This document shows, one piece after another, positions 6,001 through 51,500 of a stretch of DNA of 64,000 bases (its first letter is position 1; the number at the start of each line of letters is the position of its first letter). The position numbers were made by a program, and so were the translations under genes. The stretch covers positions 496,001-560,000 of the forward strand of contig OY979725.1 in the NCBI GenBank assembly GCA_963855995.1, given 5' to 3'. The stretch is from Muricea muricata. Lineage: Eukaryota; Cnidaria; Anthozoa; Malacalcyonacea; Plexauridae. The notes under the pieces were generated by a model. The model had not been told where the DNA came from and made no database searches. It was given only the letters and a program-made list of their open reading frames with translations.

Positions 6001-6928
6001 CCAGTAACAGGTAACATACGCTAAACACTTTACCACTAGACATCTTGCTCATGTTTGAGCTTGAAATTAAAAAAATTGACTTCAACCAATTTTTTCTCTT
6101 TAATCATAAACTAAAATTGTTGCAAAAGACTTCGTCCAGAATTGAACCCGAATTTCAGGTAACTTACGCTAAACTCTTTACCACTAGACCACTCGCTCAT
6201 GCTTGAGCTTGAAATGAAAATTATTCATTTAACCAATTTTTTGTTATTTAATTCAAGCTAAAATTGTTGAAAAAGACATCCTCCAGAATTGAACACAAAT
6301 AAAAGGAAAACTTAGGCCAAACTCTGTACCACTTGACCACGCCCTGATGCTTGAGCTGTGAATGAAAATTATTGACTTTAACTAATTTGTTCTCTTTAAT
6401 CATCAAGCTAAAATATTTGTGAAAGACTTCCTACAGAATTGAACCCGAATATCAGATAACTTCCACCAAACTCTCTACCACTTGACCATTCGCTCATGCG
6501 CGAGTTTGACATTAAAATTATTCACTTTAACCAATTTTTTTTCTATTTAATTCAACCAAAAATTGTTGAAAAAAACTTCCTCCAAAATTGAATCTGAATA
6601 AAAGGAAAACTTAGGCAAAACTCTTTACCATGCACTAGGCCACTCGCTCAAGCTTGAGCTTGTATTGAAAATTATTGACTTTAACCAATATTTTTCTCTT
6701 TAATTCAAGCTAAAATTGTTGCAAAAGACTTCCTCCAGAATTGAACCCGAATAACAGGTGATTTATGCCAAACTCTTTACATCTAGACCACTCGCTCATG
6801 CTTGCGCTTGAAATGAACATTATTCACTTTAACCAATATTTTTCTCTTTAATTCAAGCTAAAATTGTTGCAAAAAGCTTGCAACAGAATTGAACCCCAGT
6901 ATCAGGTAACATACGCTAAACTCTTTAA
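1..6928 (-). repeat. tRNA-like tandem satellite, inverted block
   Basis: Head-to-tail units of 148-149 bp fill this stretch; successive copies start at 1, 149 and 298. Roughly 33 copies up to about 5000 are nearly identical. From about 5000 to 6928 the units are strongly diverged and slightly shorter. On the - strand each unit reads TGGTCTAGTGG (box A), about 32 nt, then GGTTCAATTCT (box B), which is tRNA spacing. The box A side resembles the 5' half of tRNA-Glu. A run of four T follows about 10 nt behind box B, as a Pol III terminator would. The acceptor ends do not pair, so this is not a working tRNA. The array is cut by the window start. Confidence 0.95.
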
Positions 6929-9900: not shown

Positions 9901-10350
9901 AGCTTAATGATTAAAGAGAAGAAATTAGTTAAAGTCAATAATTTTCATTTCCAGCTCAAGCATGAGCGAGTGGTCTAGTGGTAAAAACTTTGGCGTAAGT
10001 TTCCTGTTATTCGGGTTCAATTCTGGGGGAAGTCTTTTGCAACCATTTTAGCTGGAATTAAAGAGAAACAAATTGTTAAAAGTCAATAATTTTCATTTAA
10101 AATTTCAAGAATGAACGAGTGGTCTAGTGGTACAGAGTTCGGCATATGTTACCCGTTGTTCTGGTTCATATGTCTTGGTGGTCATTTGCAACAATTTTGG
10201 CTTGAATTAAGGGAGGAAAATTAGTTAAAGTCAATAATTTACAGCGTTTGCTTCACTCATGAACGTGTGGTCTAGTGGTAAAGAGTATGCTGTAAATAGC
10301 ACTTATTGTCGTTCTAATCTGATGGTAACTATTTTGGCTTGAATTAGGGA
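6929..10350 (+). repeat. tRNA-like tandem satellite, direct block
   Basis: The same repeat continues in the opposite orientation after a sharp junction near 6928. About 23 copies of roughly 140-150 bp are moderately diverged. In one copy box A lies at 7760-7770, box B at 7803-7813 and a TTTT at 7824-7827. A D-stem of three pairs and a T-stem with four of five pairs can be drawn, but no acceptor stem. Copies decay towards 10350, where the repeat fades into unique sequence. Blocks of several units recur almost unchanged (for example around 7370-7500, 8230-8360 and 9560-9720), which points to segmental amplification. Confidence 0.93.
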
Positions 10351-30731: not shown

Positions 30732-33700
30732 ATGAACATGCGTTTTGTGTATGTTTGGATGATAATTTTCTCGTTTGATGGAGTTACCGGTACTCCTGGA
30801 GCAGGATCAGCAGGTATTTTATGCTCTATTACAGCTACGCTCGAGGAGACGCAATTAGTAATGATGAACTGAAATGATATGAACAGAATTGAACGTTTCG
30901 AGTGAACCCCTTCATCGGACAAATTGCCCACTACTATAAATTCCCGACAAAGGACGCTAGAATTCTGTTTTATTGTTTCTGATAGCGAAAGATCCTATGT
31001 TTTTGTGTGTTTTTGGCTGCACTATAGCTACCGACACGGCCAATGTTACATCCATCCATCCATTACCTCCACAACGAAGAGCTTTAGCTTCCAATCTCGA
31101 TTATCTGCTCATGATTTTAACGCAATTGTATCTTTCAATTCGCAGCAAGCTTATTTTTCTGCTTCCTTGTACATGCTCGACGATCTGAGATATTGGAAAA
31201 CATTGAGTTAAATCGGAAAAATATATGTTCGCGTTTCTATTTTACCAGTGTCCGTAGTGCAGTCAAAAGCACAAAAATCCATTTGATCTTTTTACCTCAA
31301 ACGATATTATTAACAGAATTCGATGTTTCGAGCAAAGGTTTTGTCGTTGATAGTCAAATTCTGTGTATATCATTCAAGGTAGTGAGAGATCCTGTGTTTT
31401 TGCGTGCTTTACTTTACCAGTTGTCATTAGTAACGTAGAGATGTCGATCGTCATGGCATAAATATTAATTAAAGTAGTAAACCTTGCCTACGTATACGTA
31501 GAACACCAATTGGGGAATCACATACTTTCTTGTGCTATTTGTCCAATCGGAACTTATGTTGTATAAAGCTAGATCTGATTGTTTGTGTGTGTGGGAGGGG
31601 GGGGGGGGGAGGCAATAATTTGTCACAAACTCGCAATCTGATTTTGCTGGGAAACTGGTTTTGTTCAATATGTTCAGGCAGTTCAGATGAATGGATGAAG
31701 TTGGAGTGTATCGGCAAGCCAGGCAACTGTTTACAGAGTACAGATAGGAAGTTAAGTATATCGTCCTGCGTGAAAAATGATGAAAACCAACTATGGAAAT
31801 TGGAAAAAGATGGCAAGTTGGTTAGTCATTCCAGTTATGGCAGTGCTAGACATTGTGCAGATCCAGATAGTTTACGACTCAGCGATTGTGCACGATCCAG
31901 CAATTGGACCTGCCTACCATTCGCATTGAAAACAGATCAAAACAACAGTTATCTGGGTGTCGCTGATTCGGGTTCGGGTGACGATGGACATGTGGATTTA
32001 AATCTTATCAAAGAGGATAGAAGTGACAGCTACATGCGCGCAATGTGGAGACGATTTGGCGATCCTACCAGGACCATTTGTGGTGGTAAGATTTCTGTCG
32101 ATAACACTAAAAATCAGTCTGAATTATTTAAAGAATTTTTGAAATATATACCACCGTAAACCACCGGGTTTAAGCTTTTGGTTTATTAAAATTCGTAAGC
32201 ATTTTAAGGTAAAGCCTTTTGCAGATCTTGCTTTACGTTGGAAATATTTTAACTAACCAAGATATTTTAGCTGACCATTATGGATATCTATCATTACAAG
32301 TGGGGGCACGCACAAGTGGGCTAACTAAGTTTATCAGGAGTAATGAGCTTGTTAATTTGTCTTAATGAGCCTGACTTAATGAGCTTGTTAATTTGCCTAA
32401 GATGGTCCCTTTGGTAATAGTTTAAAAAGTTCTTTAAATGAACTAAACGTTTAGTACCAACGTTCTTTAAGATTGATGTTTACAGCAGGCGACTAATTTT
32501 TAATCCCATTCCAAACCAATTTTCGACAAAGTTGTAGCCAATGCATAGTTTGGTTTGAGTGCACAAATTCTCAACTTTTAAACAGCTAAAAGATAACCTG
32601 AAAGACGAATTGAAATTTGCTGTTTGTGATTAGCAGTTAGCAAACAGTCAATAATTGCCTGCCTTGTGTAGCTACATACATTATTGTCCAACTTGTATAC
32701 TGTGTTAGTTAGGCTGTGCATATGGCTGTACGTAAATTTTGCAACAGTACACTACGAATGATATACTTTGCCAATGTGTTCGTGTTTCTTTCTTTGGAGT
32801 GTTGAACAATTTCCAATCCGTTTTCCAGCTAGTTTTGTGCAATAGCTAACTAAACTAAGTACCTAACTTAATGGGAGAATGGGAGTTGTGTATTGGTAAT
32901 TATGATATCTGTAGTGTACATTTTCAATATATGATAATTTATTACAGAAGGCATGTGGCTCATATATTTGCGGATTAAATGCAACTATTCAAGTTTACAA
33001 AATTGACAAGGATGTTTTACGTAATAACATCAAATCTGGGCAGACCTTAACACAGACTTTAAACCTAAACAACGAAACAACAACCCCAAGTTTCTAATCT
33101 TGTTTAAATATATAGCACAATTTAGTTTATTATAGTACAATTTGAATTTAGCTAAGGATTTTATAATGAACACCTGTTGTTTTATCTCCACATGCGGATT
33201 ACATATTCTTTAGAGAAGTGATACCATTCTTTTCTTCAAGCTATCAGCAATTTTCATATTTTTGTTCAATTCGCGTTTTTTAAGGTTCGAAGTTACACTG
33301 GGATTTGAAAGGCTCAAGTAGGATCTGGTCAGGCCATTGCTCCACTTGTGGTCTTTTTGCAAACTCTGGAGCATTACTGCCATTTAATGCCACAAAGATG
33401 CTTGGTGATTTAAGAGGTACTTGCTTTTCCGATCCAGATATGTGCTCACATGGTCTGTCTTTCGAGTTATGGCTGTGGTTTGCGGATTACGACCTCAGAA
33501 AGAATTCAACTACCAAAAGTATAATTCTACAAAGCGGTACGGAATCGTCAAGAGGCTATGAGCTCTCAGTTGTAAACGCAAGCATGACGTTTACAGTTTA
33601 TAGTGAAGATAGCATCTCGGAAAGTTCTTTGGAGATCAGGGATTTCGAACGTTGGGTGCACGTCATTGGGGTTTGGGTGAAGAGTACGAAGATGGCACAG

Positions 33701-36700
33701 TTGTTTGCGAATGGCGTTGACGTGGGCTGTGTTGTTATGCGGAATCCTGAAGAATCCGTGGGAGGCGAGCGTGGAGATCTACGGCTCGGACCAGTTTCGA
33801 AGATTGGTTTTGGCGAAGGTTTTCTTGTAGCTCGTAATCTGTCCATTTGGTCGCGGACAATGAATGGTACAGAACGGCGAAAACTGCTTAATCAATGTAA
33901 GTCCTGCTTTAATCCCCAAACAAAAACATAAAATTGCACAATAAGATGTTTCCACCATCAGAGGTACCCCTTCACAAAAAAATATTGATCTAAATTTTTC
34001 AGCTGCATTAGCAATACCGGACGACTGGACGACATGGTCAAACTGCACCACGAAATGTGAACAGAAACGTTGGAGAAAAACAAGCGAGGCTCTTCAATTT
34101 AATGTAACAATTACCGAAACTCGATTATGCTACAATACTCGTCGATGTGGTATGTAAAATTTGTATTGGAAACATTGGAATTTAACAGATTAAGATCCCA
34201 AAGTTCTCAGCGACCCTTGTGGATCGAATATTGTGTTTAACCTCATTGAGATGGCTGGGTTAGCGCTAAGTTTGCCCACTGTCTGTATTTCTACACGTCT
34301 GCTGCAAACAAGATTTTTGAAGAAATATTCTTAGGTGTAGGAATGTGAACACAGTTTATGATATGGCATTTGTAAACTCCGAACGCTCATTGGCTAGGAG
34401 CCGCGTTGGTATCACTCAACGTCAACACTGAAGTATTTCGTGACCACTTGATGCTTGTCTTGTCCGATTAATATGAATCTACTTTTTTTTTATATCTGAG
34501 GATGGTTCTGAAGTAGAATTGAAACACTGCGTGTCCTCAAAGACAAGCACCAAGTCTTAACAAAAATTTTTCGTGCACTTAAATTGGATAAGATCCATTA
34601 CCAATTCGCCGTTGTTTCGATAGCTCAATTGGTAGAGCCGCGGACTAGAAATTCGAAGATGCGAGTTTAAATCCCGCTCGGGTCAAGGAGTTTCTCGTTG
34701 CTCTCTGCAGTGTCAAATTAAAATGAATCCAATATGCAAATGTATTGCCACATTTTAAATGTGTTTGTCCCTTCTTTACTTAAGGTTCAAGAATCGTGTA
34801 TCCATTGGACGAGAAAAGTTCCTTAAGATGTCATAGATGTCGCCAACTTAATGCAAGCTCTGCCTTGATTCTACCAATAAATTCAACAAGAGATCTGGAT
34901 AATTACAAAGAAACGTGTTTGAGCCAGCCTGAGCATTGTGTCGATGGAATGACATTTGAAATCTGGCTTTGGTTTGCCGAGTACGAAAACAGCGGAGGGC
35001 CAAACGGCAAAATCTTAACAGCTGGGCAATTTCAATTGTCAGTTACGAGAAACAATTTGGCATTCACTGTCTTTCCTTACTATAACCGTAAATGTACAGC
35101 AGTAACAGTAACTGGTACCAACAAATGGCTTCATGTCGTTGGTAAATGGGTCAAGTCGTCGAACAGCCTGAGCTTGTATGTAAATAGTCTGATTTCGGTG
35201 AAGGATTCTTGTATCCGGGAGAACCAGTACGTTGATAATAGCAAATTACTGCTGGGACCAATTTCGAAAGACCGTCGAGGTTACATCATCGCTAAAAACT
35301 TGTCCATTTGGATGCGGGCACTGAATGCCTCAGAGCTGGAAAATCTCATGAACTCTAGTAAGTATTTGGACAAACAATAATCTCAAGCTATATCAGATGC
35401 GATAGGCCAGCCACTGCATAGCCTGACTTGGTTTTCTCTCTGCTAAGCTCATGGTTTTCCCATCTTACCTGGCGAATATGAACATATTTTGTGATTGGCT
35501 TTCTAAAGTAATAATAATCGTTTATGATTCGTTCTATTGTCTTTTATTGTTTTAACCAATCGCAGCGCCCGATGGCGACCCCTAACTCCTTCTTAACTGG
35601 ACTATGAAATTTCTTTCAGGCAGTCCTGGTTTACCTCAATCGTGGTCGCATTGGACAGAATGTAATAACTGCAAAAAAACCCGCTCTCGGCATTATCCTG
35701 CATCTAATTTGTGGATTAACGAGACGGGAATGTGTTGTGGCAATTGTAAGTGTTTGTAATATGTTTAAGATACGTTTTTCAAACAAGCTACGAGCACCGC
35801 TTGAGACATCAGCTCAAAACAACACGGACGCGAATGTTGTAAATGGCTTGTGAAATTCTCTAGTTATATAGATCTATATTGGCGAAGTAATTTTGAGTTT
35901 AATTTCTCTGTAAAACAAGAGAAATCTCAAACACATATATAGAATACAGACTCCTTGTCACCCTCATGGTTCCTTTTATCCATGAATCCTGCTGATCTGA
36001 CCGTGAGTAAAAGGCCTGGAACAACTTGCAATTACATTAAATTCTGCGTGCGGTAGAATTTTCCACCAAATTTTTTTCCGTTTCAGCAACTTCGCCACAA
36101 AGAACAAAGCCTACACCGACAGGTAAGCAGCATTAAAAAGTAGAACACGCATATGTTTCGCCGGTGCAGTAGTTCTCTCGAATTATTCTTCTGAACTGAT
36201 CTTCGTGAGATGCCCCACAACAACTTGTGGACACGAGCCATTCTACCCAATTTATGTTTGTTTGAGTGAAATACTTACATAAATTACTGTGCAGGCACTG
36301 CACTGCAGAGTGATACAAACTTCAACTCATCTTATCGTGTATATTTGTTGTAGCAACCTTTTCAAATTCACCTTCACAAACAATACAAAAAGCAAGTTCA
36401 TCATCAATAGCACCAACCCCAGCTGGTAAGACGCGGTCTTTTATCGCTGACTCTTTCAACTTTCTATCCAGTTTTCAACGATTTCTTCACTCCCCTGCCT
36501 ACATCCCTGATGAGGACCACCGTTAAGGTTTTTACAAAGTAGCATATTGCATGAATTATACACTACAGTCTACATGTCCAAAAACAGTAATCGAAGTGAG
36601 TGTCACAGTAATAAACACAGCTCATGCACGTATATATTAAAAATATATATTTGAAAGTCTGATTAACTGATGGCGAATGCAATCTGTTATGAATTTCATG

Positions 36701-39700
36701 TGTACTTTCGGGGGCTCGAAAATTCGGACAACTCAAAAAAACAACTCACGCAAAAAATAACTCCAACAACGTCAAGATGAACAGGTAAAGAGCGCAAAAT
36801 GTAGTCTTCTATCTTGGGCCTTTTCAAAAGGTTTCGTTTTCTAAACTTTACTGCTGAGTTTAGAATTTCTTGACAATTTCTATAACCTAAATATGGTGCC
36901 TTTTTTCACCATCTCAAACACACATTCTCTATTGAATAAGGTGGAACTTTAGGGGTGTATGGGGGGGGGGGGGGAGGGGGGATGCAGGGCGTTACCCTCA
37001 AGTATTTCAAATATTGTGGAAATATTCTTCCAAACTAATTGTGGAGTATACAAAAGTCATTCCAGTTTGAATATGAAACAAAATATCATTTAGCATCAAA
37101 AAGCTAAATACAGTCTAAGTTTTTTTATAGTTGCATGACATTCGTAATAATTTGTATAGGCCATTGGCTAAGAGTGTATTATCCTATTCGACTTCGTATA
37201 CATTGCATAGACTGCAGTCTGCGCGCCCGTACAGAGGAAAAATGAGTGATTGAAACAAATTGTTTTCCGCAGAGCACAAAAATCGTGTGTGCAAGTACAT
37301 TAAATTCTGCGTGCGGTAGAATTTTCCACCTAATTTTTTTCCGTTTCAGCAACTTCGCCACAAAGAACAAAGCCTACACCGACAGGTAAGCAGCATTAAA
37401 AAGTAGAACACGCATATGTTTCCCCGGTGCAGTAGTTCTCTCAAATTATTCTTCTAAACTGGTCTTCGTGTGATGCCCCACAACAACTTTCTATCCAGAT
37501 TTCGACGTTTTCTCCTCCCTCCCCGGCCCTGGCTCCGCCGCGGACACGAGCCATTCTACCCAATTTATATTTGTTTGAGTGAAATACTTACATAAACTAC
37601 TATGCAGGCACTGCACTGCAGGGTAATACAAATTTCAACCCATCTTACCGTGTATATTTGTTGTAGCAATCTTTTCAAATTCACCTTCACAAACAATGCA
37701 AAAAACAAGTTCAATAGCACCAACCCCAGCAGGTAAGACGCGGTCTTTTATCGTTGACTCTTTCAACTTTCTATCCAGTTTTCAACGATTTCTTCACTCC
37801 CCTGTCTACATCCCTGATGAGGACCACCGTTGAGGTTTTTACAAAGTATCATATTGCATGAATTATACACTGCAGTCTACATGTCCAAAAACAGTAATCG
37901 AAACGTTTTGGCTGTAGCTCTAAAATAATGGTAAATACTGTGTGTGATTGCTCATCTAAACTCCTGTTTGCAATTACAAGTTTCAACCTAAATTTATTAT
38001 TTATCTTTCTTTCAGCAACTTCATCACATGGAACACACAAAACAGTTTCAGTAACGTTTAAACCTACGGGTAATTAAGGAGCATTGAAATGTAGTCTTAT
38101 ATCATAGATGTTCTCACCAGCTTCCATTTAATATAAGATTCGCTATGGTCAGTTTAGATGAACGGAAATTCTCATAACAAAATTTCTTTAACCCAAGGTT
38201 TACGGTGTTGAATGTTTTACCATCTTCAACACCTTGTCAGCATTCCTCGAGAGGCGAACATTAGGAGTGTCTGAGGTTTATATAGCGTCAATCATGTTAA
38301 TTTTCTGTCGTTCTAGGTCCATCTAACTGCATTGGAACGCTCGAAGACAAAATTCTAAAGGGAAAGAAAGACTTTTGCAAAGATGGTTGGCTTGTGATCC
38401 TCAATCGAACGTCTGGAAATTTAAATTTTAATAAAAATTGGGCAAATTATAAGAATGGCTTTGGCGAACCTCGTGACGAACACTGGATTGGAAATGAAAT
38501 GCTTCACAATTTAACACACGAACAAAATTACAAGCTCAAGGTCTATTTTAACCATAATCTAACCACGTCAAGTACATGTGGAGTCTTTCGTGTCGCTTCA
38601 GAGGAAAACAAGTTTGCTTTGAAGCTTTCTCTCTGTAAAGGACCAGCAGCTCATGCCTTAAGTTATTCGGACGGCGCAAAGTTCTCGATTCGTGATAATG
38701 ATAACAGTGGTGAAAAGAACTGCGCCAAAAATTATGGCGGGTTTTGGCATAAAAACTGCACCAAAGTTCACTTTACCTGTCCACGTCAAGGAAGTAGATT
38801 CACGGTTTCATATTGGACGGAGAATGACGAAGTGGTTGAAAAACGCGCAGTAACAATGATGATAAAACCACATAATGAAAGTAAGTTCTGACGTTAACAA
38901 GTTGGGCAATCCTAGTGTTCTGCAGGACGTCTACAATTTATTTATATAAGGCTGTTTTCGTAGAGGGGGTGGGGGCAGAATTGGGACAAATACTGTAGAG
39001 CTAGGTGGAAAGAGAAGATAATATATACTATTTTTTCCCCAACACAACAACCATGGTCTTTTTGAAGAAAACGTTCTTGATTGTTGAAACACTATGCCGC
39101 ACTTACTCTGTCTCGTGATTCAATGATCTTTGCTTAATCTGTATATCTTTATAGGTTTCTTCGGAGTAGCCATAAAAATGAAATTTGTGAATGAGATATG
39201 GGATAACGAGTTATTGAATGTTGCCTCGCGCCGTTTCTTGCTCTTAGCGAGAAAGATTAAGAAAAATGTGAGTGTGATTAAACTTGACCACAAAGCTTTA
39301 CTAGTCTCCAGATCGATCATTACTTTGAATTATTGTTCATTTTCAGCTCGAAGCTGTTTACCGTGACGATGCAACGTATGTAGCGGCCACAGTCAATTCG
39401 TTCAGGTCAGTTGTTTTGCGTCCTTAAAGATTGAGTAGTACGGAACAACAAATTGATTTCCGAAAAACAATGCAAGCTTAGAGGACATTTTAGCCCAATT
39501 TTAGCCGAATGTCACGAGTTGTCTCCGGGTATTCTCGTTTCCCTCCTACAGAGAATGTTGGCACGTCAGAATTGTAGAATTTCTTTAGTTTCATCAATTA
39601 CCCGGTCTGTGGCAAATGTTTAATACACCCATTGTTCGTTTTGTACCTATTTGTTCAACTCCAGCCACTGTAGTCCATATAGTTAACAGTCAATAATCTT

Positions 39701-42700
39701 CAAAAAGGTATCCACCGAATAGGATAGAAATTCAGACATAAAAACGATGTCTACGATGAAAAAAGTAGTGTAATACACAACTTCATGTTGCCAACTGATG
39801 TCAGTGGCGCCACGAAGAATTACAAATTGCTGCTTCAATATTGACATTTCATGCATTAAATAACGTACGTATTTCGCTTAAATCGATATGGGTGTAACTT
39901 TGAAGATGTTTTCCCCCGATGAGCTTAATAAACCATGTATTGATTGTGGTAGAGTCGAAAAATATTGTTATAAATAGACACAAGTGTTACACGTTCACTT
40001 TGTCGTTCATGTTTCTTTGTCGATTTCAGAATTCGTAAAATTGACCAATCATAGCGAAGCACAAAAGTTCTAAACATTTGCACAGACCAGAATTACGCGA
40101 AATTGGTAGCTAGAAGTATTAATATTAGCTAGATGTAAATTGACTGGTTACTAAATTGGAGCTTTTCTTGTCATTCAAACATCGGTTTTAATTATCTCAA
40201 ACGTTATTGAAATCATATTATCCGTAACAAACGTCAAGTTGTTTTATGCAATAATTTATATGAGTCAGATCACTCAAGCCTTGAGGCCATGTCGATAGTT
40301 TTTTGACTGGTTTCAATTGATTTCTTACAGTCCAGGAAGTGTGATTGCCAACGTCACCCTCTCATACGTTTTCCTCAATGGCACGCAAATTACGACGCTG
40401 CTGCAAGACTTGGACAGTGAATTTCTTAATGGCGAGATGCGTGTGTCGTACAATTACAGCGATGTTCGTATCTTGTCAGGTAAGCCACGCGTCGTGCTAG
40501 TTTCTATTCCCGTCACAAAAACTACAGACTACACTTTCGGATTAGTTTAGTTTAGTGGGTTTGCGAAAGATTGCACGTAAGATGCATTACGGACCAAGTT
40601 CACAGTTGGTAGCAAGGAATGAAATCAGGACGTTTGTCCTAGCTTACAGTCAATGTGAAGGTTAAGTACGCACTGCTTGTCCTGAGTTGTCGACACGTTT
40701 AGAACAAGGTTATCAATTTATGTTTCGCTTTCGGTAACTAAGGCAACGGTTAGGGGTAGAAGAGGTTAGGGTTAGGCGTTTGATTAAGGTTAAGGGTTAG
40801 GGTTAGGGGATACTTGGGGATAGAGTCATATTAGTGACCGAAACATGAATTGATTACTTAGAACAACGTGTGTGTAGTTGGCTGCTAAGATATGAGACGA
40901 TTACTCCTATTTATCCCTTTCAAACATCGTATATACCACCTTGTACTCACATCCCTTCTGTACTGTCATAGAATGATCGAGTGATCGATAGTTAATCCTT
41001 GCTGAGCACGATAATAGTAAAGTTATAGCACGCTAATAGTAAAGTTATAGCATCATAATAGTAAAGTTAGTACAATAAAGTTAGTTTGAACAAGGAGTTA
41101 TATCTACGATAAGATATGTTGAGTGCGCAGTTGTATTGAGTTTATCTGTATTTTTTGCAGTTTCCAATGTTTGGCCGCGGATTAAAGAATTACACAACAC
41201 AAGTTCGACAAGCTTCAACGTCAGCTGGTATCGCTTCGATTATATGAGCGAAGTGAAAAAGTACAAAGTTTACTATCTATCGCTTGAATCACAAAAGTGG
41301 ATGGTGAAAAACGTTTCGAAGGATCTTTTAAGCGCTGAAATCCAAGGACTCAACCCGTTTACATCGTATATTGTTTATGTGGCTGCTTATTCAGGCCATG
41401 ACCTACCCAGTAATATGCATAATGTAAAAACTAATGAAGGGGGTAAGTTGAGCTCATTGATGTCTGCGGTTGACCAATTCATTTGCTCAAGTTTAGCAGT
41501 TCCTCAGATTAATTCCTCCCGTGATTCAAAAGTTCGTTAAAATGTTTACATTAAAATGCTTACAACTTCCTGTTTATTGACCATATTGACCAATCAGAAT
41601 GCTCACGAATAAGATATAGCATTCTTATTGGTCAATTAACAGGAAGTTGTGAAAACTTCAAGGCACTTCTTGAAAATTTTGAGGAATTGATTCGACAAAA
41701 TTGACTGTAACATAACTGCTGGTTCACCATTGTTTGTAAAACTTGTATAACCATAAGCAGCTCAATTCACTGTGCAGTTTCAGTAATGTATAGAAATCAG
41801 TGCGCACATGAACATACTTAAGTACTTACGAAGTATGAACACCTGAATATTTTATCTGTTTCTTAGTTCCCAAGGTAGGACCTGCTAATTTAACAGCTCA
41901 TTGGATCAAGAACAATTACAGCGTCCTAGTGACCTGGTCTCCCATCCCCCAATCATTGGCTCAAGGGCATATAACACATTACATCATTACTTACTCAAAC
42001 ACAACACACAACATAACGGAGACGACAGGTGAAAACTCGTTCGTTATGACCAGACTATCCATATTCACGGAGTACACTATCACCGTAGCTGGAGCGACGA
42101 GCGTGGGAAAAGGCAACGAAAGTACAATAGCCTACAGAACAAGAGGACTCCGTAAGTAGAATCCGATATAGATGGAAAAACTGCATAGCTATATTGCATG
42201 TAAGCCATTCTTTTTTAACCACATTTCTTTAAATTTAATCTAGCTCTCCCTCCTCCGACAAATTTGACCGCTATAAACACAACGTACTCAACGATAAATG
42301 TATCCTGGATTCCCATCCCAGATGAACCTATTTTTGATAAAGTTTTTGACTACAGATTGTACTATTATGATCAAAACATGATGAGAAGAAATTTTACTGT
42401 TCCTGCAAACCAGACTGCAATCACCATCACTGGTGTTGAAACGAATCAAGCCTATGACTTTACTGTTATGGGTTTGGCATTTGGAGAGCGAGAAGGCCGT
42501 CGAGCAAGCACAAGCGCCATCATTATACATATCACAGGTAATCAAGAGAAACTGCCTTTAGTCCAGCTGCTTTCGGTTGTTCAAAAGTCGGTTAGCTGAA
42601 CACTTGGTTTGGGGTAGGTTTGAAGGTGATTTCAAGCTTGTTTTTTTTACGTTTGGAAATATTTTTACACAAATCTTGTCTGGATCAATAGTAGTTGTAG

Positions 42701-45700
42701 TTTTTGAAGTTTTGAAATAAACAGACATATCGGAATGCAAAAACTAGGATCCACGGCTAGCACTAACCCAGCTGTGAACGACTGGCCTGATGTTAAGAAA
42801 TGTCGTATTTCTCATAGCATGTGATAAGCCTTGCGTTAAACTATCAGTGACTTACTTTTCGTTTAACACTTCATAGCTCCACCAGATCCCCCAAAGAACC
42901 TTAATTGTACCGGAATATCCCCGTACACCATCTCCGTTGGCTGGCATGATTTCTCGCTAAAAGAAGCTGGCGGATCGCTCACAGGTTACAAGTTGAGATA
43001 TAAGCTCAAAGGTGACCCGGGTAATAAGAGCGAGGTTGAACTTAAGCCACACCCGCCTTGGTATACCTTGGAAAACTTGCCAGTTTTCACAGAATATGAA
43101 ATTGAAGTTTTGGTGGAAAATATCAAAGGTCGAAGTACTTGGTCGAACATAACTTGCAGGACTGCTGAAGGAGGTAAGCTTTGCGAGATCATTCATGGGT
43201 TTTATGTGACATCGTAGATCTCAATCGGCCACAAGTCGATAACGACGCAGTCTTCTGCGTGAATCAGATGAATTCACATCACGCAGTCACGAAATAGTCA
43301 TTACATATGATTGGCTAAGCGATTGGGCAGAGGATGGTATTTTTCCTGGAGTTAGAGTTCTGGTATTTATAGACTTTACTGTAGGGTAATGGCATAATGT
43401 GAAACTCAAGAATAACTATTATTATAATGAGTTTGTTTCAAATCATGTAGTGCCAATCGTTATTCCCCGAGGTTTGCAAGCGCAAAGCTATATTGGCGAA
43501 ACGTTTATTACACTGTCCTGGGAACACATCCCAATCAATGGCACTCTAAGTGGATACAGGGTACTCTATCGCAAGATCGCAGAGGCTGGCAAAAAGATTA
43601 AAGATGCGAAAATGAAAAGTTTAAAAGTTTCAGCAAGTGTGACCGCAGCCCAAGTTCATGGGCTCGATCCATATTCGAAATATTGTTTCCAGTTGTCGGT
43701 TTTTAACGAGCATTTTGATGGAAAACTGAGCAGCTCAGCTTGTGCAGGTGAGGAAGGGTTGTATTGTCACTCAACCTTCGTGTATAATCCCTTTCAGTTT
43801 ACCCTTTGTCTAACAGAAGGTAGATCTTCTTCAATTTTTGTCCATTGCATTGTGAAAATCATACTATGTTTGGCTCCATTTGTCCTCACATGTGGATAAA
43901 CATTTTGTTTGTTTACCTGTAAGTTAGTTATTTTTTGGACAAAAATACAAACTACATCCATTGTACAAACAATGCGTCCTAGGACTCAGGAGACTCAATC
44001 GATGCACTTTTATTCACAGAGACTTGTCGTTGTCCTCGAACGTTTTACACCAACTGGTTCCTGTTCGATCCTTACGTAGTGACGTCGAGGTCTGGCATAT
44101 TCCCTCCCCTCGTGAAGAGTATGGTCAAAGAGGCATGCGGTCCCTGCAAAGCGTACAACGACACGGTGTTTGTCAACTTCACAACGGACGGAAAAGGTGA
44201 AATGGCTCGAAAGAACAGCTCAAAGCTCGTTCAGCTTGTTAAAACAGAAGATGCAACTCAATTCAGTTACCCCGTACCAGGCCCGATAGCGGGTTCAGGA
44301 TCCTTTATACCAGTTGTAGACGGTCCAGAGTCTGTGTTTATTACACGGAAACCGGTGACACACATTGTCGCTCAGACAGCCATTGGAACAACTGTTATTA
44401 ATACACTGCCGTTGTTCGCATTCATGTTCCTCGTCATGCTTCTTGGTGGGATACTAATGTGGGCAGTGGTAAGCGCAGATTTATTATCTTTCTTGCTTGC
44501 CAGATTATGATAAAGATCAATACCCAACAATGCTTTGAGTAAAGGCATAAAAGCAAGATTTAAAATAGAAAATATTTATCATGTGACGTTTCGTCTTAAC
44601 TTAAGACATCTTCAGACAAGTGGATAATATCAATGTCTTGGGTTAAGACGAAACGTCACATAACAAATATTTTCTATTTTAAATCTTGCTTTTATGGCTT
44701 TACTCAAAGCATTATGTCGGGCATTGATCTTTATTATAAGAATACGTTTTCCGCCTGGCACGTCTCTGGCTACCAGATTATGTTTATTTCGTAACACAAC
44801 TTGTAAAAACATTTGATTTGGTTTGGCATCGTGCGTTTTTGTTCCATTTTGTTTCTGTAGGAGTTCAGAAATGAAAACGAAGCATTCCCGAAAGCTTTTC
44901 ACAAAGGCGCACAGCAAGGATTCTGGTGGGCTTTTGTCTCGGTTACCACAGTTGGGTAAGCAGTAAATGTACTATTCTTGGTTTAGGTATTTCTGTTAGG
45001 GTTGACACCCACCCGTACTAACAGACTTCGTGAGTGTATATTATGACAATGAAAGACAGTAAGCTATAAAACGGGTCATAAACCATGATGACTGCATGTT
45101 GTTTTAAAAGTGCAATTGCAAAGCCTGATCATTGTAGGTTGGTATTTACCCCGTTCGTTGCATGTTGCGTGCAGAATTCTTTCCCATCCTTTCTGGAATA
45201 CTTTCTCTTCTTAGTTACGGAGACAAAGTTCCAAACTCGATAGCGGGGCGTGTGCTGTCTATGATATGGATTCTTTATGGAACCGTTCTTGTTGGTCTCA
45301 CTACGGCCAGCCTGACGATGGCTTTGAACACGGTGTTTGTTGTCACATCCACAGATGTAACGATAATATATGGCGCTCAGGTGAGAGTAAATGGCTCTAT
45401 TGTATTGCAATTGTCAAAGTTCCCCTCTTCATGGGGGGGGGGGGCTCATGTGTCTCATTGGTATAGAGCGTATCACGTGAGATTGACGAAATTAGACTGT
45501 CTCTTTCGCATCAGCGCACAAAGGAAACAATGCATTATTCACCGGTGAATAACAAAAAAAATCACGTGCGCTTGTCTCGGGTCCACGAAACCTACTGTTT
45601 TTCTCGGTCTCGGTCAATGAGTGTTATAGATAAATTGGTCTCTTCCAAAACTTTGTTTCGTGTAAATTTTGAGCTGGTTAGTCACTTTCGTTAAATAATT

Positions 45701-47452
45701 CATTCACGCAATATTCTTGCTTTGTGTTGCTGATATGTATCTAGGTTGCTGCGATTGAAAACAGTTTAGAAGTCCAGCTTGGGTTGAAAAAAGGAGCTCA
45801 CATGAACGAAGGTATACAGAATTCTCTGGTAGCACTGATCCTTGGATAATCTAAGTTAGCGCGGGGCAATATATAGGGGAGTTAATGTGACTTAAGACGA
45901 GGGTTTGCATGAAAATTCCTTAGCTCTCGTGTTCAGAAAACCCCACAAGTACTGGAGTTGGACTTCTCCGAGCAAAGATACTTTTCTGAATTCCATATAG
46001 GAAGAAACTATTCAGATGTAAACTCCATCCTGCAAGCACTTGAAAATGGTGATATCGATGGTGCTTTGATTGATAAGCTTACGGCGGCTCGTATCGAGAA
46101 GCTAAGCAATCCTAACTCTGTCTTTGAGATCAAGGATGAATTTCCTCAGCCATCAACCTACGGTATATTCCTGTCTGGCCCTGCTACCAAATTACAAAAG
46201 AAATTTCGACAATATTTACGGAACAATGCAGGTGCTGTTGTCGATCGGATTAAAAACCACACCAAACCATTGAAGGTGATTATAAAGAAGAAATGAAATT
46301 TAGCCATATATAGACGATAGAAGATATACATATAAACGTGTTAGTTGTGGTTTGCAAAATACAAAAGAGTGCTCAATAACATATAGATAGAGCAAAATGT
46401 ATAATCGTATTAATATATACAAACCTTGTGTCGTCAATCTTGCTATATCAATACTGTAGCATGTTTTTAACAACTTGTTCCAGAATCATAACCACCACCA
46501 TTATTACACAGCTGTCATCGTCACCACACCGAACTAAACGAACGTTCTTTGCGTGAATTTCCCTGTAGACAAAAGAAGACTCCACAGCAAACCAAAAAGA
46601 AGATGAAACAGAGGCGCCGTCCGAAAGCAATATCATTTCAGGATCATCGCCAATGTTCCTAACCCTCTTGTTGTGGCTAATTGGAGTTCTAATCTTCTTC
46701 TACATGATAGGCCTTGCTTGGCATTTTCTCTATTACAAACATGTGGCCAAAGTCGCGAAGAACAAAGGTAATGTCATACACTGCTAATTTTTGTTATCTT
46801 AGCCAAGTCATTTTATTAAAGAAGAAATGCAGTGAAACTCTACTGACTTAGGTACTGACTCTGCAGTCGCTGCTGACGGGACTGACTGACTATGTGGTTA
46901 TCCATCATCAAAATAGACTTGAACAGTCGTTCACTAAAACGACCATTTACAAACACAAGAAAATACAGGTTCGACGTTATCAGTCGATGCCTTTTGTCGG
47001 GAAGTTAGGATTGGACGCGTAGTGAAAGAAACCGTACTTGCTTGTGCTTCTGAACCACGACCTACACTGACAGCGTTGGTTTATTTACAAGCACAACCGC
47101 TTCATTAGAACTGCTTCCAAAACCCTGGCTTCCTTCTTGGAATTGAGCTCCATTAACTCCAGCTACAATATTTAACTCCAGCTACAATATTTAACTTCAG
47201 CTACAATATTTAACTCCAACTACAATATTTAACTCCAGCTACAATATTTAACTCCAGCTACAACATTTAACTCGACTCGTAATCACTTTTTCATTTATAG
47301 TCTGTGCTGCGCGGGAAAGCAAAACGGAGATTTCGTCGTTGAAGGATTTCGCGACAGAATTTCGTGAAGATACGTTCCAAAAACTACGAGATATGAAATA
47401 TCGTCATGCTCGAGAGTTGAGGGTTCTCTGCAAGTTTAAAGGCAGCGTATAA
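30732..47452 (+). CDS. adhesion-ectodomain, potassium-filter glutamate-receptor-like channel
   Basis: Twenty-seven coding exons give one continuous frame of about 2,011 codons; exon limits are in the four segment entries below. Order by approximate residue: signal peptide 1-24, beta-trefoil-like 28-163, ConA/LamG-like 164-367, TSP1-like 368-416, ConA/LamG-like 417-607, TSP1-like 608-649, Ser/Thr/Pro linker 650-737, fibrinogen-related 738-925, SEA 926-1032, five FN3 1033-1517, S1-like 1518-1640, M1 1642-1667, pore 1686-1704 with TTVGYGD, M3-equivalent 1710-1735, S2-like 1755-1895, M4 1923-1951, cytoplasmic tail to 2011. The topology is that of ionotropic glutamate receptors, but the filter is that of potassium channels and the usual amino-terminal domain is absent. 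The ATG directly follows an acceptor (TCTTGCAG). Many N-x-S/T sites support an extracellular location. I know no named family with this order; ligand and function are unknown. Two genes wrongly joined is unlikely, because phase is kept throughout and neither part has its own start or stop. Confidence 0.82.
34450..34560 (+). repeat. foldback with degenerate hammerhead-like core
   Basis: CTGAGGA at 34496, a hairpin 34504-34520, GAAAC at 34521 and a neat stem III (ACAC/GTGT, loop TGC) followed by C resemble a hammerhead core. However, an extra T follows the first box and stem I does not pair next to the core. Arms GCTTGTCTT and AAGACAAGC enclose it. It is probably a decayed Penelope-like or retrozyme-type terminal fragment. 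Confidence 0.4.
34612..34740 (+). mobile_element. tRNA-derived SINE fragment
   Basis: In the intron after receptor exon 4. Box A TAGCTCAATTGG (34621-34632) with a perfect D-stem GCTC/GAGC, box B GAGTTTAAATC (34663-34673), and a T-arm with four of five pairs. The anticodon and acceptor stems are broken, and unrelated sequence follows, so it is a tRNA-derived SINE head or tRNA pseudogene and not a working tRNA. It is not related to the satellite at 1-10350. Confidence 0.65.
36033..36595 (+). repeat. segmental duplication, copy 1 (linker exons 7-8)
   Basis: A 563-bp segment including two linker exons and their introns is repeated 1,263 bp downstream at 37296-37902 with about 90-95% identity. 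Exon limits and phases are kept, so the duplication lengthened the Ser/Thr/Pro stalk without breaking the frame. Confidence 0.93.
37296..37902 (+). repeat. segmental duplication, copy 2 (linker exons 9-10)
   Basis: Second copy of 36033-36595. It carries a GC-rich insertion of about 55 bp at about 37490-37545 in an intron, and exon 10 has lost two codons relative to exon 8. The first 11 codons of the first linker exon are unchanged. Confidence 0.93.
37350..40479 (+). other. receptor-channel exons 9-15: linker, fibrinogen-related domain, SEA
   Basis: Exons 37350-37385, 37667-37732, 38016-38069, 38317-38880, 39155-39267, 39347-39405 and 40331-40479. Exons 9 and 10 duplicate exons 7 and 8. Exon 12 is a full fibrinogen C-terminal domain: DGWLVILNR, NWANYKNGFGEP, HWIGNE, then SIRDNDNSGEKNCA, GGFWHKNC and the closing MMIKP. 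Exons 13-15 make a SEA domain with the cleavage-type turn PGSVIA. FReDs bind ligands such as sugars or proteins; SEA modules split themselves at G/S. Confidence 0.8.
40708..40857. mobile_element. MITE with telomere-like TTAGGG core
   Basis: A 150-bp insertion flanked by TTAGAACAA at 40699-40707 and 40858-40866. Terminal inverted repeats share ATCAATT(T/C)ATGTTTCG. The interior (40748-40812) is built of degenerate GGTTAGGG units. It sits in the intron between receptor exons 15 and 16. Confidence 0.75.
41012..41090. repeat. short tandem repeat (AATAGTAAAGTTATAGCA)
   Basis: Three to four imperfect units of about 20-22 bp containing AGTAAAGTTA, in the intron before receptor exon 16. No function is apparent. 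Confidence 0.7.
41161..43747 (+). other. receptor-channel exons 16-20: five FN3 domains
   Basis: Exons 41161-41442, 41867-42151, 42244-42537, 42877-43173 and 43451-43747, each one complete fibronectin type III domain of 94-99 residues. Each shows the conserved W in strand B (FNVSWY, VLVTWS, INVSWI, ISVGWH, ITLSWE), a Y-x-(V/L/I)-x-Y in strand C and a closing Y in strand F. Every exon starts and ends in phase 1. The repeats form a stalk between the SEA module and the channel. Confidence 0.9.
41562..41650. repeat. small foldback element
   Basis: ACAACTTCCTGTT at 41562 with a following ATTGACCAAT...AGAATGCT is mirrored by AGCATTCTTATTGGTCAAT...AACAGGAAGTTGT ending at 41650. Loop of about 14 nt. 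The left arm carries an internal repeat of ATTGACCA. It is a foldback MITE in the intron after receptor exon 16. Confidence 0.8.
44505..44740. repeat. foldback element with about 105-bp arms
   Basis: The intron between the M1 and pore exons contains arms 44505-44610 and about 44634-44740 that are roughly 90% reverse-complementary, with a loop of about 25 nt. On the - strand the loop side reads CTGAAGA, one extra T, a perfect six-pair hairpin, then GAAAC, as in the element at 34450. No complete hammerhead can be drawn. Confidence 0.8.
45381..45744 (+). other. receptor intron between M3 and S2 exons
   Basis: The intron contains a G-run (45434-45443) and a perfect 18-bp palindrome, TTATTCACCGGTGAATAA, at 45535-45552. 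Nothing else was recognised. Confidence 0.6.
47155..47275. repeat. minisatellite, about 20-bp unit
   Basis: Six near-identical units of AACTCCAGCTACAATATTT in the last intron of the receptor-channel gene, directly upstream of the final exon's acceptor. Confidence 0.9.
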
Positions 47453-48527: not shown

Positions 48528-51500
48528 ATGGAGGCAGAAATCAAAGAGGAGTGCTTTACGCTTACCTCGTTTGCCCCTCTTTCACCAGAAGATGAGAAAT
48601 CAGGTCTGCGAAAGTTTTTCAAAGGATTGAAGTCAAAAAAGGCAACAGTAGGATCGAAGTCGTCCTCAGATGACAACCAAAGTAGCCAGGTGAATTCGGC
48701 AGGAAATGGTCCACAGGTTTCATATGTTAGCAGTGATGCCACAAGAAACAAACAATTGTCAAAGAAAAACCCTGTTGTTGAAGGGCTGTATTCAAAGGAT
48801 GAGGGATCACAGAATAATTGTACACTGCAAGATCTAAACCAAAGCAAGATTGTTGCAGATCGTCATTCCAGGACGCCTAGTTCAGTATTGCGACGCCTCA
48901 GTCAGTTAGTGTTGCTGCAGGAGAAATCATATCCACAGGTATGCAAAGTTAAATTTGTTAAGAGGATGTTGACAAATAGATTTTGTCCTGAGTAAATGTG
49001 AACTTGTCCCACTGGGCACTTCCACTGAAAGAGATGGGCGAGGGGGGGGATGAATGGGCAATAAGGTAAATATAGTGCACGAGCAGCCAATCCGTATCTG
49101 GTTTACAATCATGAAATAGTAAAGCTTGTAAATCAAATACAGAGTGGATCCGAGTTTGCTATTTGTGAAATCTCTGGATGAAAAAATTGGTATTTTTTCA
49201 TAATCTAGCTCAAATCAATGAGTGATGTTTGGTTAGAGACTCAAACTTAAAGCCTGGTCCACACTTGTCATAAGAATCCAGGATGACTTTTTCTTTTGGT
49301 TTCCAATGTGATTGAGTCACTTCTATGCTGGCCATTGTAAAAACAATTAAACAATCTAATATTCACTTAGGTGATAGGGAGAAAATCTTCGATTCTTATG
49401 ACAAGTGGGTACCAGGATTAACATTTGTGTAAACAGGGAAAAAACTCTGTATGATTTACAGATCAAAACTGTATTTCTATTGTGTTTTCTTCATGTATTG
49501 CTAAATAATGAATTTCATAAAATTCATACAAATAAAAGTCCATAAAGCGAAATATTATCTAAGGCTTGGAGACTGTTGTGAGTGTTTTGTTTACAAATAA
49601 AGCACAAGCTGAATGCACAAGGAACGGAAAATTTTCTATACTGCACGAGGCTGCTGTATCGCCATTTTAGATGAATAATGCATGTTTTCTGTGCGTTATT
49701 GTCAATACTCTCTTGTTGCCAGGTAACAATAACACGTCATTGATTTTGACCAATCGGATGCGTGGATTTTGTATACTATCTGTATACCATAGCTTGATTG
49801 ACTTTGATTGTGAGTGTCTGAATTAATTGCTTCATAGTTTTTAAAATGAAATGACAACCTTGATCTACAGTAAGTGGAAATTAATATTTTAACAGCAAAC
49901 TCAAGGTACTGACAATCTGAAGAAATATTGGATGCCAGATGAGCAGTGTAAGGTCTGTTATGAATGTGGGCTCAAGTTTCATACATTCAGACGTCGTCAT
50001 CATTGTCGTCTATGCGGACAAATTTTTTGCAGTCGGTGTTGTAATGAAGTTGTGTCTGGTCACCAAGTTGGATATACTGGTAAAATACATGGCTTTACAT
50101 TTGATTTATCACAATTTGACCACCCACAGTTTATGCAAATTAGCTTTAAAGTCCTTGGGACTGCAAGGTACACCTGTGTAATTATGTCCGATGGTAATCT
50201 GTCTGGTTTGTGGTCACTTTGTGGTTACATTTGATATGATGTCTCAAAATCCATCAAAACTTTGCCCAAATGACCTGAATTGTCTAATGTAGTATTGCTA
50301 TGCTATCTGGGGTGAGTTTTGGTAATTTAACATAATGTGCCGGGAAGCTCATGCACTTGAAACTTTTCACAAATGACAAATAAGTCTTCTTGCGTAAACA
50401 TTGCCACTGAAAATAGAATTTAAGGAGTTTTTGTCGCCTCCACCATTACGTATCTGCTAATTCCTACACGGTCTATCCATTCTTTAGGAGTTTTTCGTGT
50501 CTGTATATACTGCAAGAAAATAGTATTGACATATACATCAAGTTCTGATGTTGACAAGAACTTAAAACAGCTCAAAGAAGATTTGCGTCTGGTGGGACAA
50601 CCAGATAGTACCAACCCTGCAATCAACATTCATGGCTGGAATGCTTTGTTTGACGATCCTGAACTCCATCGATCATTTGATGTTTTGGGTGTGAGCGCAG
50701 AAGAAGCAAACTTGCTGAAACAGGTTTGAGAATTGAATATTTTTGCTGTTTTGTTCATCTGAATAATTGTTCTTATAGCAATTCTATTAGGAGCATAGTT
50801 TACTACAGCAGGAAACCTAAACTAAACAAAATGGCTAACACATGCAAAACCATACGATCTTTCACCACCAATACCAAACGAAACATGCAGAATTTGATGT
50901 TTCAAGCAAGGGCCTTTCCTTGGGAAGTTACTGGTAGATTATTTACTGAGATTGCAATTATGCTTTTGTGTGTTTATGTTATGAAATATATTAGCTGTGT
51001 TTCATTTAGGATTCTTTCAAGGATTTGTGGCAACAAATCACAACTCCAAGAACTGGTCTAGAGTTCATGACTCACAGGATCAGACTGCGGACATATTCTA
51101 CTTGTTTTGTTAGTCGAGATCTTATCGATTGGCTGATGGTAAATAGAAAAGCCCCGAATAGGTGCGATATGGTGATCATGTTAATTCTAGTTGTGTCCTG
51201 TTTTATACTAAATCTTTGTATGTTTGCATGATCGTGAGCGTAAATACCAGTTTGATTTTGTGGAAACACCAGGTAGTGTACCACTATTTAAATCATAATA
51301 AATGTATGTTGTGTTTCTGCAAAATTACACTGATAAACCTTATAAGTTTTCATTCCAATTTTAGGGCTGTGGCTGTGCAAATTTGTCAAGGATTGTTAGA
51401 CTTAGGTTGGATTGAACCACTGAATGTGGCAGGCCCTGATTTCAGAGATGACTTCATGCTTTATATTCCTGGGCCTGTAAGTTTGAATTTGTTATTTTGC

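Follow-up and report, generated by a model that had tools for sequence, protein, structure and literature searches.

A predicted gene of the anthozoan Muricea muricata joins an adhesion-type ectodomain to a K+-type glutamate receptor channel

We analyzed a 64,000-nt stretch of the Muricea muricata genome (assembly GCA_963855995.1, contig OY979725.1, positions 496,001 to 560,000 of the forward strand; hereafter the window). The plus strand of the window carries a gene model of 27 exons at positions 30732-47452, on which all features below are located. All introns are GT-AG and phase-consistent, and the model contains no internal stop. Rebuilt from the sequence, it encodes 2,011 aa, which agrees with the continuous, phase-correct frame proposed in an earlier, sequence-only reading. 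One junction of that reading proved to be wrong: within S2, donor 45811 and acceptor 46001 fit paralog A, a related locus of the same genome, with a gap-free alignment of 114 residues (104 bits). The earlier junction, 45828/45937, was dropped due to its lower score (87.4 bits) and the 27 gap positions of its alignment to paralog A. The corrected gene product is 1,984 aa long, and poly(A)-type signals are found 3' of the stop codon at 47491 and 47510.

The ectodomain comprises about 1,500 residues and the adhesion part is approximately three times as large as the channel part. Exon 1 (30732-30813), the least certain of the phase-consistent model, contains the start codon and a signal-peptide-like stretch identified by eye (MNMRFVYVWMIIFSFDGVTG). 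When exons were searched singly against Pfam, exon 2 (31678-32085) resembled the beta-trefoil of Ricin_B_lectin (1.3e-4; 22.6 bits, under the cut-off of 29). Two LamG-like domains follow, at 33285-33896 and 34785-35357: the first matches Laminin_G_3 (6.2e-7; 30.1 bits for a cut-off of 27.6) and the second, without a LamG match of its own in the single-exon search, is 33% identical to the first (6e-37). Two short exons, a Cys/Trp-rich one at 34003-34149 and another at 35620-35745, look TSP1-like by eye, and neither presented a TSP1 match in Pfam when searched singly. Five small Ser/Thr/Pro linker exons come next (36087-36122, 36354-36425, 37350-37385, 37667-37732, and 38016-38069); one pair of linker exons is duplicated together with its introns (36027-36595 relative to 37290-37902, 87%). 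The remaining modules were matched by Pfam on the gene model: a fibrinogen C-terminal (FReD) domain (38317-38880; Fibrinogen_C, 4.6e-29), a SEA domain spread over three exons (39155-39267, 39347-39405, and 40331-40479; 3.6e-6, 27.5 bits for a cut-off of 26.4), and five FN3 domains with one domain per exon (41161-41442, 41867-42151, 42244-42537, 42877-43173, and 43451-43747; fn3, 1.2e-54 over five stretches). From the modules initially listed, the fibrinogen-related, SEA, five FN3, and first LamG-like domains are retained, the trefoil-like domain stays below cut-off, and the TSP1-like assignment, with no Pfam match, is unproven. The Pfam scan found no LIVBP-like amino-terminal domain in the ectodomain, and the earlier reading of an adhesion ectodomain in place of the amino-terminal domain of animal iGluRs is supported.

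The SEA domain of the window gene contains the sequence GSVIA, and GSV[IV]A was found in five of the six loci scanned, although this motif was itself the search key in the relatives. The motif-bearing exons of paralogs C and G (one each) had no Pfam SEA match, and the motif scan revealed no GSV[IV]A in paralog E. By sequence, GSV[IV]A is close to published motifs of SEA autoproteolysis: PMC6954182 reports that GSVVV or GSIVA leads to cleavage. Putative self-cleavage at G-SVIA, first considered an even chance, was revised to slightly less than even because the motif was the search key and because two motif exons lacked a Pfam SEA match.

The channel part starts with the S1 half of a ligand-binding-type domain and M1 (44020-44468). 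These are followed by the pore helix with the initial residues of the K+ filter (TTVG; 44861-44955), the rest of the filter (YGD) with M3 (45215-45380), the two S2 exons with corrected end and start, respectively (45745-45811 and 46001-46275), the M4 helix identified by hydropathy (46569-46767), and a cytosolic tail with the stop codon (47301-47452). The gene model, hydropathy, and bacterial alignments concur on the order S1-M1-P-M3-S2, with a pore that would be inverted in orientation, and the proposed order M1-pore-M3-S2-M4 around a TTVGYGD filter is thereby upheld. Pfam assigned Ion_trans_2 to the gene model (3.7e-13), and Lig_chan matched the window gene below its cut-off (18.2 bits with an E-value of 0.0023 in one scan and 19.8 bits in another, for a cut-off of 30.8). 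All 12 family members matched Lig_chan at E <= 1 (best 1.2e-7; 25.1 bits for paralog A and 17.9 bits for D). Two of the seven plain Kv pores of the same genome also matched it weakly, and Lig_chan alone was therefore dropped as proof of an iGluR.

From M1 through S2, the window gene aligned to bacterial GluR0-like K+ iGluRs with 92.8 bits, and the best scores of the 12 family members ranged from 75 to 97 bits (blastp); in the longest pieces, which spanned 200-330 aligned residues, identity was about 25-35%. For comparison, the window gene scored 48-59 bits against the seven Kv pores, with tblastn rather than blastp, and the four canonical iGluR exons of the genome scored at most 25.8 bits against any family member. 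By eye, the canonical pore-containing exons L144 and L146 present no GYG filter. The bacterial set was chosen by the pattern [MV]TTVGYGD and by similarity to the window gene (80 loci among the matches listed), and the five relatives submitted to Pfam all presented SBP_bac_3, Lig_chan, and Ion_trans_2. One canonical iGluR exon of the genome reached 73 bits against the same bacterial proteins, so kinship with them extends beyond the family.

In a pore tree built with 18 of these 80 bacterial loci and leaving out canonical iGluRs, the family grouped with the bacterial K+ iGluRs, apart from the seven Kv pores, at 100/100, and held together at 95/84. Hydropathy indicated only one helix before the pore and no Kv voltage sensor (S1-S4) was found. 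The tree and the topology rule out a plain Kv channel gene lying beside an adhesion gene. The window gene presents the TVGYG filter, the S1/S2 flanks, and the closest similarity of K+-type (GluR0-like) iGluRs, within a bacterial set picked by filter pattern. The initial description as a glutamate-receptor-type potassium channel is amended in that the membrane part lies nearer to bacterial K+-type receptors; the four canonical iGluR exons compared are more distant. If functional, the pore would quite probably be K+ selective.

The gene is a member of a family rather than an isolated case: the genome contains 17 related S1 exons, two of them with E about 0.02 (C10:955434 and C6:13866021), and 13 are located on contig C10. 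We stitched five other loci (paralogs A, B, C, G, and E) and, in all of them, FN3 exons lead into the channel on one strand, with recognition domains in four of the five. Paralogs A and B present FReD-SEA-FN3 x5-S1-M1-pore-M3-S2 in the same order as the window gene. Two FReDs precede the FN3 and channel exons in paralog C and a LamG-like domain precedes them in paralog G; FN3 and channel exons were found in paralog E among the matches listed. The head types identified by Pfam across loci are TSP1 (12 matches), Laminin_G_3, C-type lectin, F5/8-like, and fibrinogen-C, the last of which matches at least 156 exons of the genome. The head of paralog A contains a true TSP1 (2.8e-11), and Pfam matched neither its LamG-like exon nor the two adjoining exons. 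Heads vary between loci and the FN3-channel part is constant. Many head types are present, and a single contig of chromosome size carries most of them.

On C10, all 18 fibrinogen-C matches listed lie upstream of a channel S1 exon, on the same strand and within 50 kb (permutation mean 0.38; maximum 4 in 20,000). The same was observed for 17 of the 19 FN3 matches listed (permutation mean 0.41) and not for the other two. This permutation covers C10, used positions transcribed by hand, and treats matches as independent though several share one gene. The module order lies beyond chance, since it recurs at other loci and in view of the C10 permutation. Between paralogs A and B, dN/dS ranged from 0.06 to 0.47 in nine of the 11 exon segments with computable dS, and the filter reads G[YF]GD in the 12 joined family models.

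Whether the ectodomain and the channel belong to one gene depends on the junction between the last FN3 exon and the S1 exon. A stop or poly(A) site between 43747 and 44020 had been named as the mark of two genes. We found no AATAAA or ATTAAA in 43748-44019, and an unspliced read through this intron would stop at 43899. A rival explanation is that two neighboring genes, one for an adhesion protein, secreted or anchored, and one for a channel, were duplicated as a block and are wrongly joined here. Consistent with this, the corresponding intron of paralog B contains a poly(A)-type hexamer, an in-frame Met codon is present in an open stretch upstream of five of the 13 S1 exons, and the joined model is known from genomic sequence. 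However, the S1 exon starts at the same residue, with the same phase-1 AG acceptor, in all 13 loci checked (of 17). The intron of paralog A is just 90 nt long (C10:320620-320709), and neither this intron nor that of the window gene contains a poly(A)-type hexamer. Moreover, no signal peptide would be provided by an S1 exon standing alone, and by hydropathy the ectodomain is free of membrane segments up to M1. These observations render two genes highly improbable, and the locus very probably constitutes one gene encoding a very large receptor-channel subunit.

We then considered what this subunit might bind. The lack of an S1/S2 fold beside the pore had been named as a refuting result; profile comparisons do recover the fold for S2, and S1 falls within the shuffled null. 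The S2 profile matched six E. coli binding proteins (73.6%, score 37.7; null maximum 19.3 of 99 shuffles) and bacterial GluR0-like S2 (92%, score 41.3; null maximum 17.7 of 60), using a bacterial profile built from the 66 of 80 listed ORFs with fitting geometry. Bacterial S1, meant as a control, scored 29.9 as well. In the PDB, S2 gave six weak matches: the named iGluR homologue 2pyy, 8b5d and 4zv1, which we take to have the same binding-protein fold as 2pyy, and three unrelated structures. The AlphaFold2 model of S2 had a mean pLDDT of 80.2 and a pTM of 0.42. S2 very probably adopts the PBP2 fold. In contrast, the S1 profile scored below the null maximum against both bacterial S1 (16.5 relative to 21.6 of 60) and E. 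coli binding proteins (12.0 relative to 24.4) and found no binding-protein match in the PDB, a null result for the profile approach. S1 did align to bacterial proteins in single, gapped BLAST pieces in members A, C4a, and C4b; a PBP2-type S1 is weakly supported.

None of the 12 members matched Lig_chan-Glu_bd or SBP_bac_3 in Pfam at E 1, and none of the 16 Lig_chan-Glu_bd matches of the genome is located at a family locus. Given the lack of Lig_chan-Glu_bd in the members and at their loci, binding of glutamate is not supported by the sequences. The S2 alignment contains an invariant Gly after Tyr, and the Asp of GALxD is invariant across the 16 S2 exons aligned. S2 aligns onto GlnH at this Asp, presumably the place of the ligand-contacting acid in PBP2-type folds. 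By eye, no constant arginine was seen in the S1 exon alignment.

On balance, we lean toward a K+ channel controlled by recognition or force, combining a recognition head, a SEA domain, and an FN3 stalk with a GluR0-like channel. If expressed, four subunits would form a K+-selective pore in the inverted orientation of iGluRs, and the head would bind glycans, cells, microbes, or matrix. Self-cleavage of the SEA domain at G-SVIA may occur, in which case head and stalk would be held together non-covalently only. Binding to the head, or a pull on it, could change the stalk or strip the head off, and either would in turn bias the S1/S2 clamshell above the pore. The K+ conductance would then open or close, with a hyperpolarizing, inhibitory effect. 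The clamshell may retain the ability to bind a small molecule, though classic amino-acid binding is not clearly indicated. Cleavage and mechanical coupling are suggested by motif and anatomy, and control of gating by the head is a near-even proposition that we place just on the doubtful side.

Alternatively, the head of the single protein may do no more than position the channel, at contact sites or at the matrix, and gating would come from a small diffusible ligand bound by the clamshell, the mode of other K+-type iGluRs. The homology of the membrane part to bacterial K+-type iGluRs and the invariant GALxD Asp aligned onto GlnH are consistent with this possibility. However, the missing Lig_chan-Glu_bd match and S1 arginine argue against it, as do the strong differences between the heads of different loci, which suggest that recognition is under selection. 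We consider this alternative unlikely, though a serious competitor. It is also conceivable that the pore does not conduct and that the protein is an adhesion or immune receptor using its channel part as a membrane anchor or for subunit assembly. Some iGluR-type proteins, the delta receptors, pass hardly any current themselves or none at all, and the adhesion part exceeds the channel part in size. But the K+ filter is kept in all 12 joined models, and dN/dS between A and B is 0.33 in the pore, 0.10 in M3 (with dS near saturation), and 0.06 in S2, which makes a non-conducting pore improbable.

More speculatively, recognition- or force-controlled K+ channels of this type might form a class of 'adhesion channels': interchangeable heads would sit on a SEA-FN3 stalk that stays constant and cleaves itself, and this stalk would gate a K+-type iGluR by pull or ligation. 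Contact with prey, kin, symbiont, or microbe would yield an inhibitory K+ current; the heads, all feeding into one electrical output, would constitute a recognition repertoire that evolves through exchange of heads and through gene conversion exon by exon. We regard this generalization as rather unlikely at present. The family itself, with adhesion heads joined to a bacterial-type K+ pore, would mean that a K+-selective iGluR lineage has persisted and expanded in an animal, that the amino-terminal slot of iGluRs can accept recognition modules, and that a receptor for surface contacts can double as an ion channel. Such a family suggests that a potassium current could be under the direct control of cell-surface touch or recognition. 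The window gene is a candidate for contact recognition at the animal surface and offers a concrete protein on which gating of a K+ current, by head binding or by SEA cleavage, can be examined.

K+-type glutamate-receptor channels are otherwise best known from bacteria, and the iGluRs of animals are generally described as cation channels whose amino-terminal domain is LIVBP-like. We know of no such adhesion ectodomain on AvGluR1 of rotifers, which shares with the window gene a K+-type iGluR in an animal. A mention in PMC12226733 describes AvGluR1 (Janovjak 2011) as K+-selective and resembling bacterial iGluRs; compared by description only, it stands as the partial precedent previously proposed. 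Prokaryotic K+-type iGluRs (GluR0 of Synechocystis; 'Group 1' of PMC2950845) share the M1-pore-M3-S2 homology, the K+ filter, and S1/S2 around a two-helix pore. According to PMC6385376, GluR0 possesses neither M4 nor an amino-terminal domain, whereas the window gene adds M4 and the large adhesion ectodomain (GluR0 was compared by description, the sequences compared being those of bacterial relatives). Metazoan iGluRs, which PMC6307864 divides into AKDF, NMDA, Epsilon, and Lambda, share the order S1-M1-P-M3-S2-M4 but differ in that the Lig_chan-Glu_bd matches of the genome are found at other places.

The polycystin-1 family likewise combines a large adhesion head, a cleavable module, and a signaling membrane part. 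The same holds for adhesion GPCRs with SEA or GAIN domains (for example Gpr126; PMC6954182). In contrast to these, the membrane part here is a K+-type ion channel rather than seven helices: Pfam found no GAIN domain in the gene product, and Pfam and hydropathy found no seven-helix domain. We found no published description of an adhesion-headed K+-type iGluR in searches of open-licence papers. Nematostella proteins with ECM domains include ion channels according to the main text of PMC12549020, whose supplement may list relatives. The same text discusses fibrinogen-related proteins (FREPs) of a sea anemone as matrix, immune, or venom-like proteins; their common feature with the window gene is the fibrinogen-C domain, which is here placed on a channel.

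We rebuilt the ectodomain of the gene at 30732-47452 (+) from the raw sequence, which gave 1,517 residues from 20 GT-AG exons, with phase-1 modules nearly throughout. The 2,011 residues counted by the sequence-only reading were reproduced as a full model with one terminal stop, and poly(A)-type signals are found at 47491 and 47510, 3' of the stop codon. The S2 junction of that reading (45828/45937) required correction. In paralogs A and B of the same genome, the exon ending ...SKGA(L/F)VNKG closes on a phase-1 donor, with G-RNYSD opening the exon that follows; the window has an equivalent donor at 45811 and acceptor at 46001, which yields a model of 1,984 residues. The earlier S2 aligned to paralog A with 27 gap positions (87.4 bits), whereas the corrected S2 aligned over 114 residues without gaps (104 bits). 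The score against paralog D was 61.6 bits relative to 47.4 for the earlier version. Nothing was gained against the bacterial relatives L064 (27.7 versus 28.5) and L065 (9.2 versus 12.7), whose S2 alignments are short and local and begin past the junction or are trivial. Hydropathy of the 1,984-residue model (19-residue mean >1.6) placed M1 at 1638-1670 and M4 at 1890-1924, with a weaker M3 between them (about 1707-1742), and no hydrophobic segment was detected by this criterion in the ectodomain before M1, presumed signal peptide included.

Pfam matches in the window protein comprise fibrinogen-C (FReD; 4.6e-29), five FN3 (1.2e-54), SEA (3.6e-6) and Ion_trans_2 (3.7e-13). LamG was matched in one exon (6.2e-7), a second copy being 33% identical to the first, and the beta-trefoil match fell below the cut-off. 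Two exons had been read as TSP1-like, but Pfam found no TSP1 match in them. The Ser/Thr/Pro linker exon pair was doubled by a segmental duplication (36027-36595 and 37290-37902; 87%), and the intron preceding the second LamG holds a tRNA-Ser(AGA)-like sequence (34613-34686) that may be a tRNA-derived repeat.

Using the window's membrane part as query, we found 17 S1 exons among the matches listed in the 453-Mb genome (two with E of about 0.02). Thirteen of these are located on the window's own contig C10, whose 13.9 Mb amount to about 3% of the genome's length. Paralogs A (C10:308-324 kb) and B (C10:341-356 kb) both present FReD, SEA, five FN3, S1-M1, pore, M3 and S2 in order on one strand. 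Upstream of FReD, an F5/8-like domain was matched in both (4.4e-7 in A, 7.7e-7 in B) and TSP1 in A (2.8e-11); the other upstream exons had no Pfam match or one below the cut-off, one being LamG-like by eye. Paralog C (47.6-63.0 kb, minus strand) presents FReD (1.3e-50), a C-type lectin piece barely above the cut-off (1.5e-4), a second FReD, LamG (1.1e-11), the SEA motif, FN3 and the channel. Paralog G (12.47-12.49 Mb) presents LamG (1.7e-12), twelve TSP1 repeats in one 738-aa open exon (3202-5415 of L044, the stretch holding its head), the SEA motif and FN3, and paralog E (2.34-2.35 Mb) FN3 alone within the stretch examined. Comparison of these five loci indicates that the heads vary while the FN3-channel part is constant. 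Additional clustered pore-like exon matches were found on contigs C9, C16, C6 and C3 (e.g., C16:1574558-1601413 and C9:3187260-3219659).

The channel could alternatively be encoded by a separate gene, and the open stretch before the S1 exon indeed contains a Met codon in 5 of 13 cases, with none in the other eight. Of the 17 S1 exons, 13 were compared together with their upstream sequence, and all 13 share their first residue position ([EAD]TCxC), an AG acceptor before it and the phase. In paralog A, the intron from the last FN3 to S1 is only 90 nt long and its donor is the best-scoring one. The proposed check for a poly(A) site between FN3 and channel agreed with a single gene: no poly(A)-type signal was found in intron 43748-44019. 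The constant S1 acceptor and phase, the 90-nt intron and the constant FN3-channel association render it very unlikely, short of cDNA evidence, that the channel is a gene of its own.

We further analyzed the kinship of the channel part. Bacterial relatives were collected by scanning the species genomes of GTDB for [MV]TTVGYGD and confirming by tblastn; among the matches listed, 80 of 472 were kept. In the best bacterial ORFs, similarity to the membrane part of the window protein extends from M1 through S2 (L064: 92.8 bits, residues 134-317), and all five ORFs put to Pfam present SBP_bac_3, Lig_chan and Ion_trans_2, the anatomy of GluR0-like K+ iGluRs. This anatomy is termed 'Group 1' in the available part of PMC2950845, whose authors in 2010 knew the combination from bacteria only. 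All 12 family members match these bacterial proteins (best scores 75-97 bits); seven Kv pores from this genome scored 48-59 bits against the window by tblastn, which is not strictly comparable with the bacterial scores. A tree of 37 pore regions, canonical iGluRs left out, grouped the family with the bacterial set and Kv apart (100/100), and united the family at 95/84 with the long-branched bacterial L101 adjoining it, although the bootstrap had not settled. Four exons of canonical iGluRs from this genome, two including the pore and none S2, reached at most 25.8 bits against any family member, and the two groups hardly match each other. Since one of these canonical exons (L144) reached 73 bits against the bacterial set, kinship to these bacteria is common to the family and canonical iGluRs.

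A profile of 16 S2 exons gave six weak PDB matches (E 0.04-1.5): 2pyy is a named bacterial iGluR homologue, 8b5d and 4zv1 are presumably binding proteins of the same fold, and three are unrelated. With hhalign, a 15-row S2 profile matched six E. coli amino-acid binding proteins (73.6%, score 37.7), relative to maxima of 19.3 for 99 column shuffles and 15.3 for five other E. coli sets, and 18.8 for the reversed profile. Against bacterial GluR0-like S2 the profile reached 92% and a score of 41.3 (null maximum 17.7 of 60); bacterial S1, intended as a control, scored 29.9. AlphaFold2 gave the second S2 exon a mean pLDDT of 80.2 and a pTM of 0.42. The S1 profile aligned at the expected place, yet within the null, and for three members (A, C4a and C4b) single gapped BLAST pieces continue from S1 into the pore. 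Lig_chan-Glu_bd was matched by 0 of 12 members, its matches in the genome lying off the family loci, on C2, C5, C6, C7, C12 and C15 only. An acidic residue (GxxxD) is invariant in all 16 S2 exons, and no constant arginine was seen by eye in the S1 alignment. Based on these results for the binding halves, gating by amino acids is possible but unproven.

The scan, keyed on GSVIA or GSVVA, located this motif at five of six loci: within the SEA domain of the window and in exons belonging to A, B, C and G. It was absent from the examined stretch of locus E. The motif exons of A and B align with the window's SEA domain, itself a Pfam match, and that of C only at E 0.03; the single motif exons of C and G had no Pfam match. 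In the available part of the Gpr126 paper (PMC6954182), autoproteolysis is attributed to GSVVV or GSIVA, and the cleaved SEA halves hold together until pulled apart by force. Given its place between a binding head and the channel, a recognition- or force-controlled K+ channel would be the simplest working model for the protein, by inference.

No account of this architecture was found in the open-licence literature searched. The K+-selective animal case in the available part of PMC12226733 is a rotifer receptor; GluR0 is described without NTD and without M4 in that of PMC6385376, and that of PMC6307864 uses none of the terms potassium, GYG or selectivity filter. The parts are already known; for their combination and for the family, no description was found in this literature.

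Paralogs A and B (C10:308-356 kb) present dN/dS of 0.06-0.47 in the nine exon segments with computable dS, which is saturated in FN3-3 and FN3-5. Adjoining exons range from dS 0.05 to saturation and identity per exon from 60% to 98%; some introns align and several do not. This mosaic resembles the outcome of gene conversion or exchange acting exon by exon. Elsewhere in the window, positions 1-10286 are occupied by about 10 kb of satellite with a 147-149-bp unit, which reverses at ~6927 (by eye, from consensus units) with the GC skew switching to match. Downstream of the gene, the ORFs at 48528-50234 (+) have, by eye only, the look of a PIKfyve-like FYVE-finger lipid kinase.
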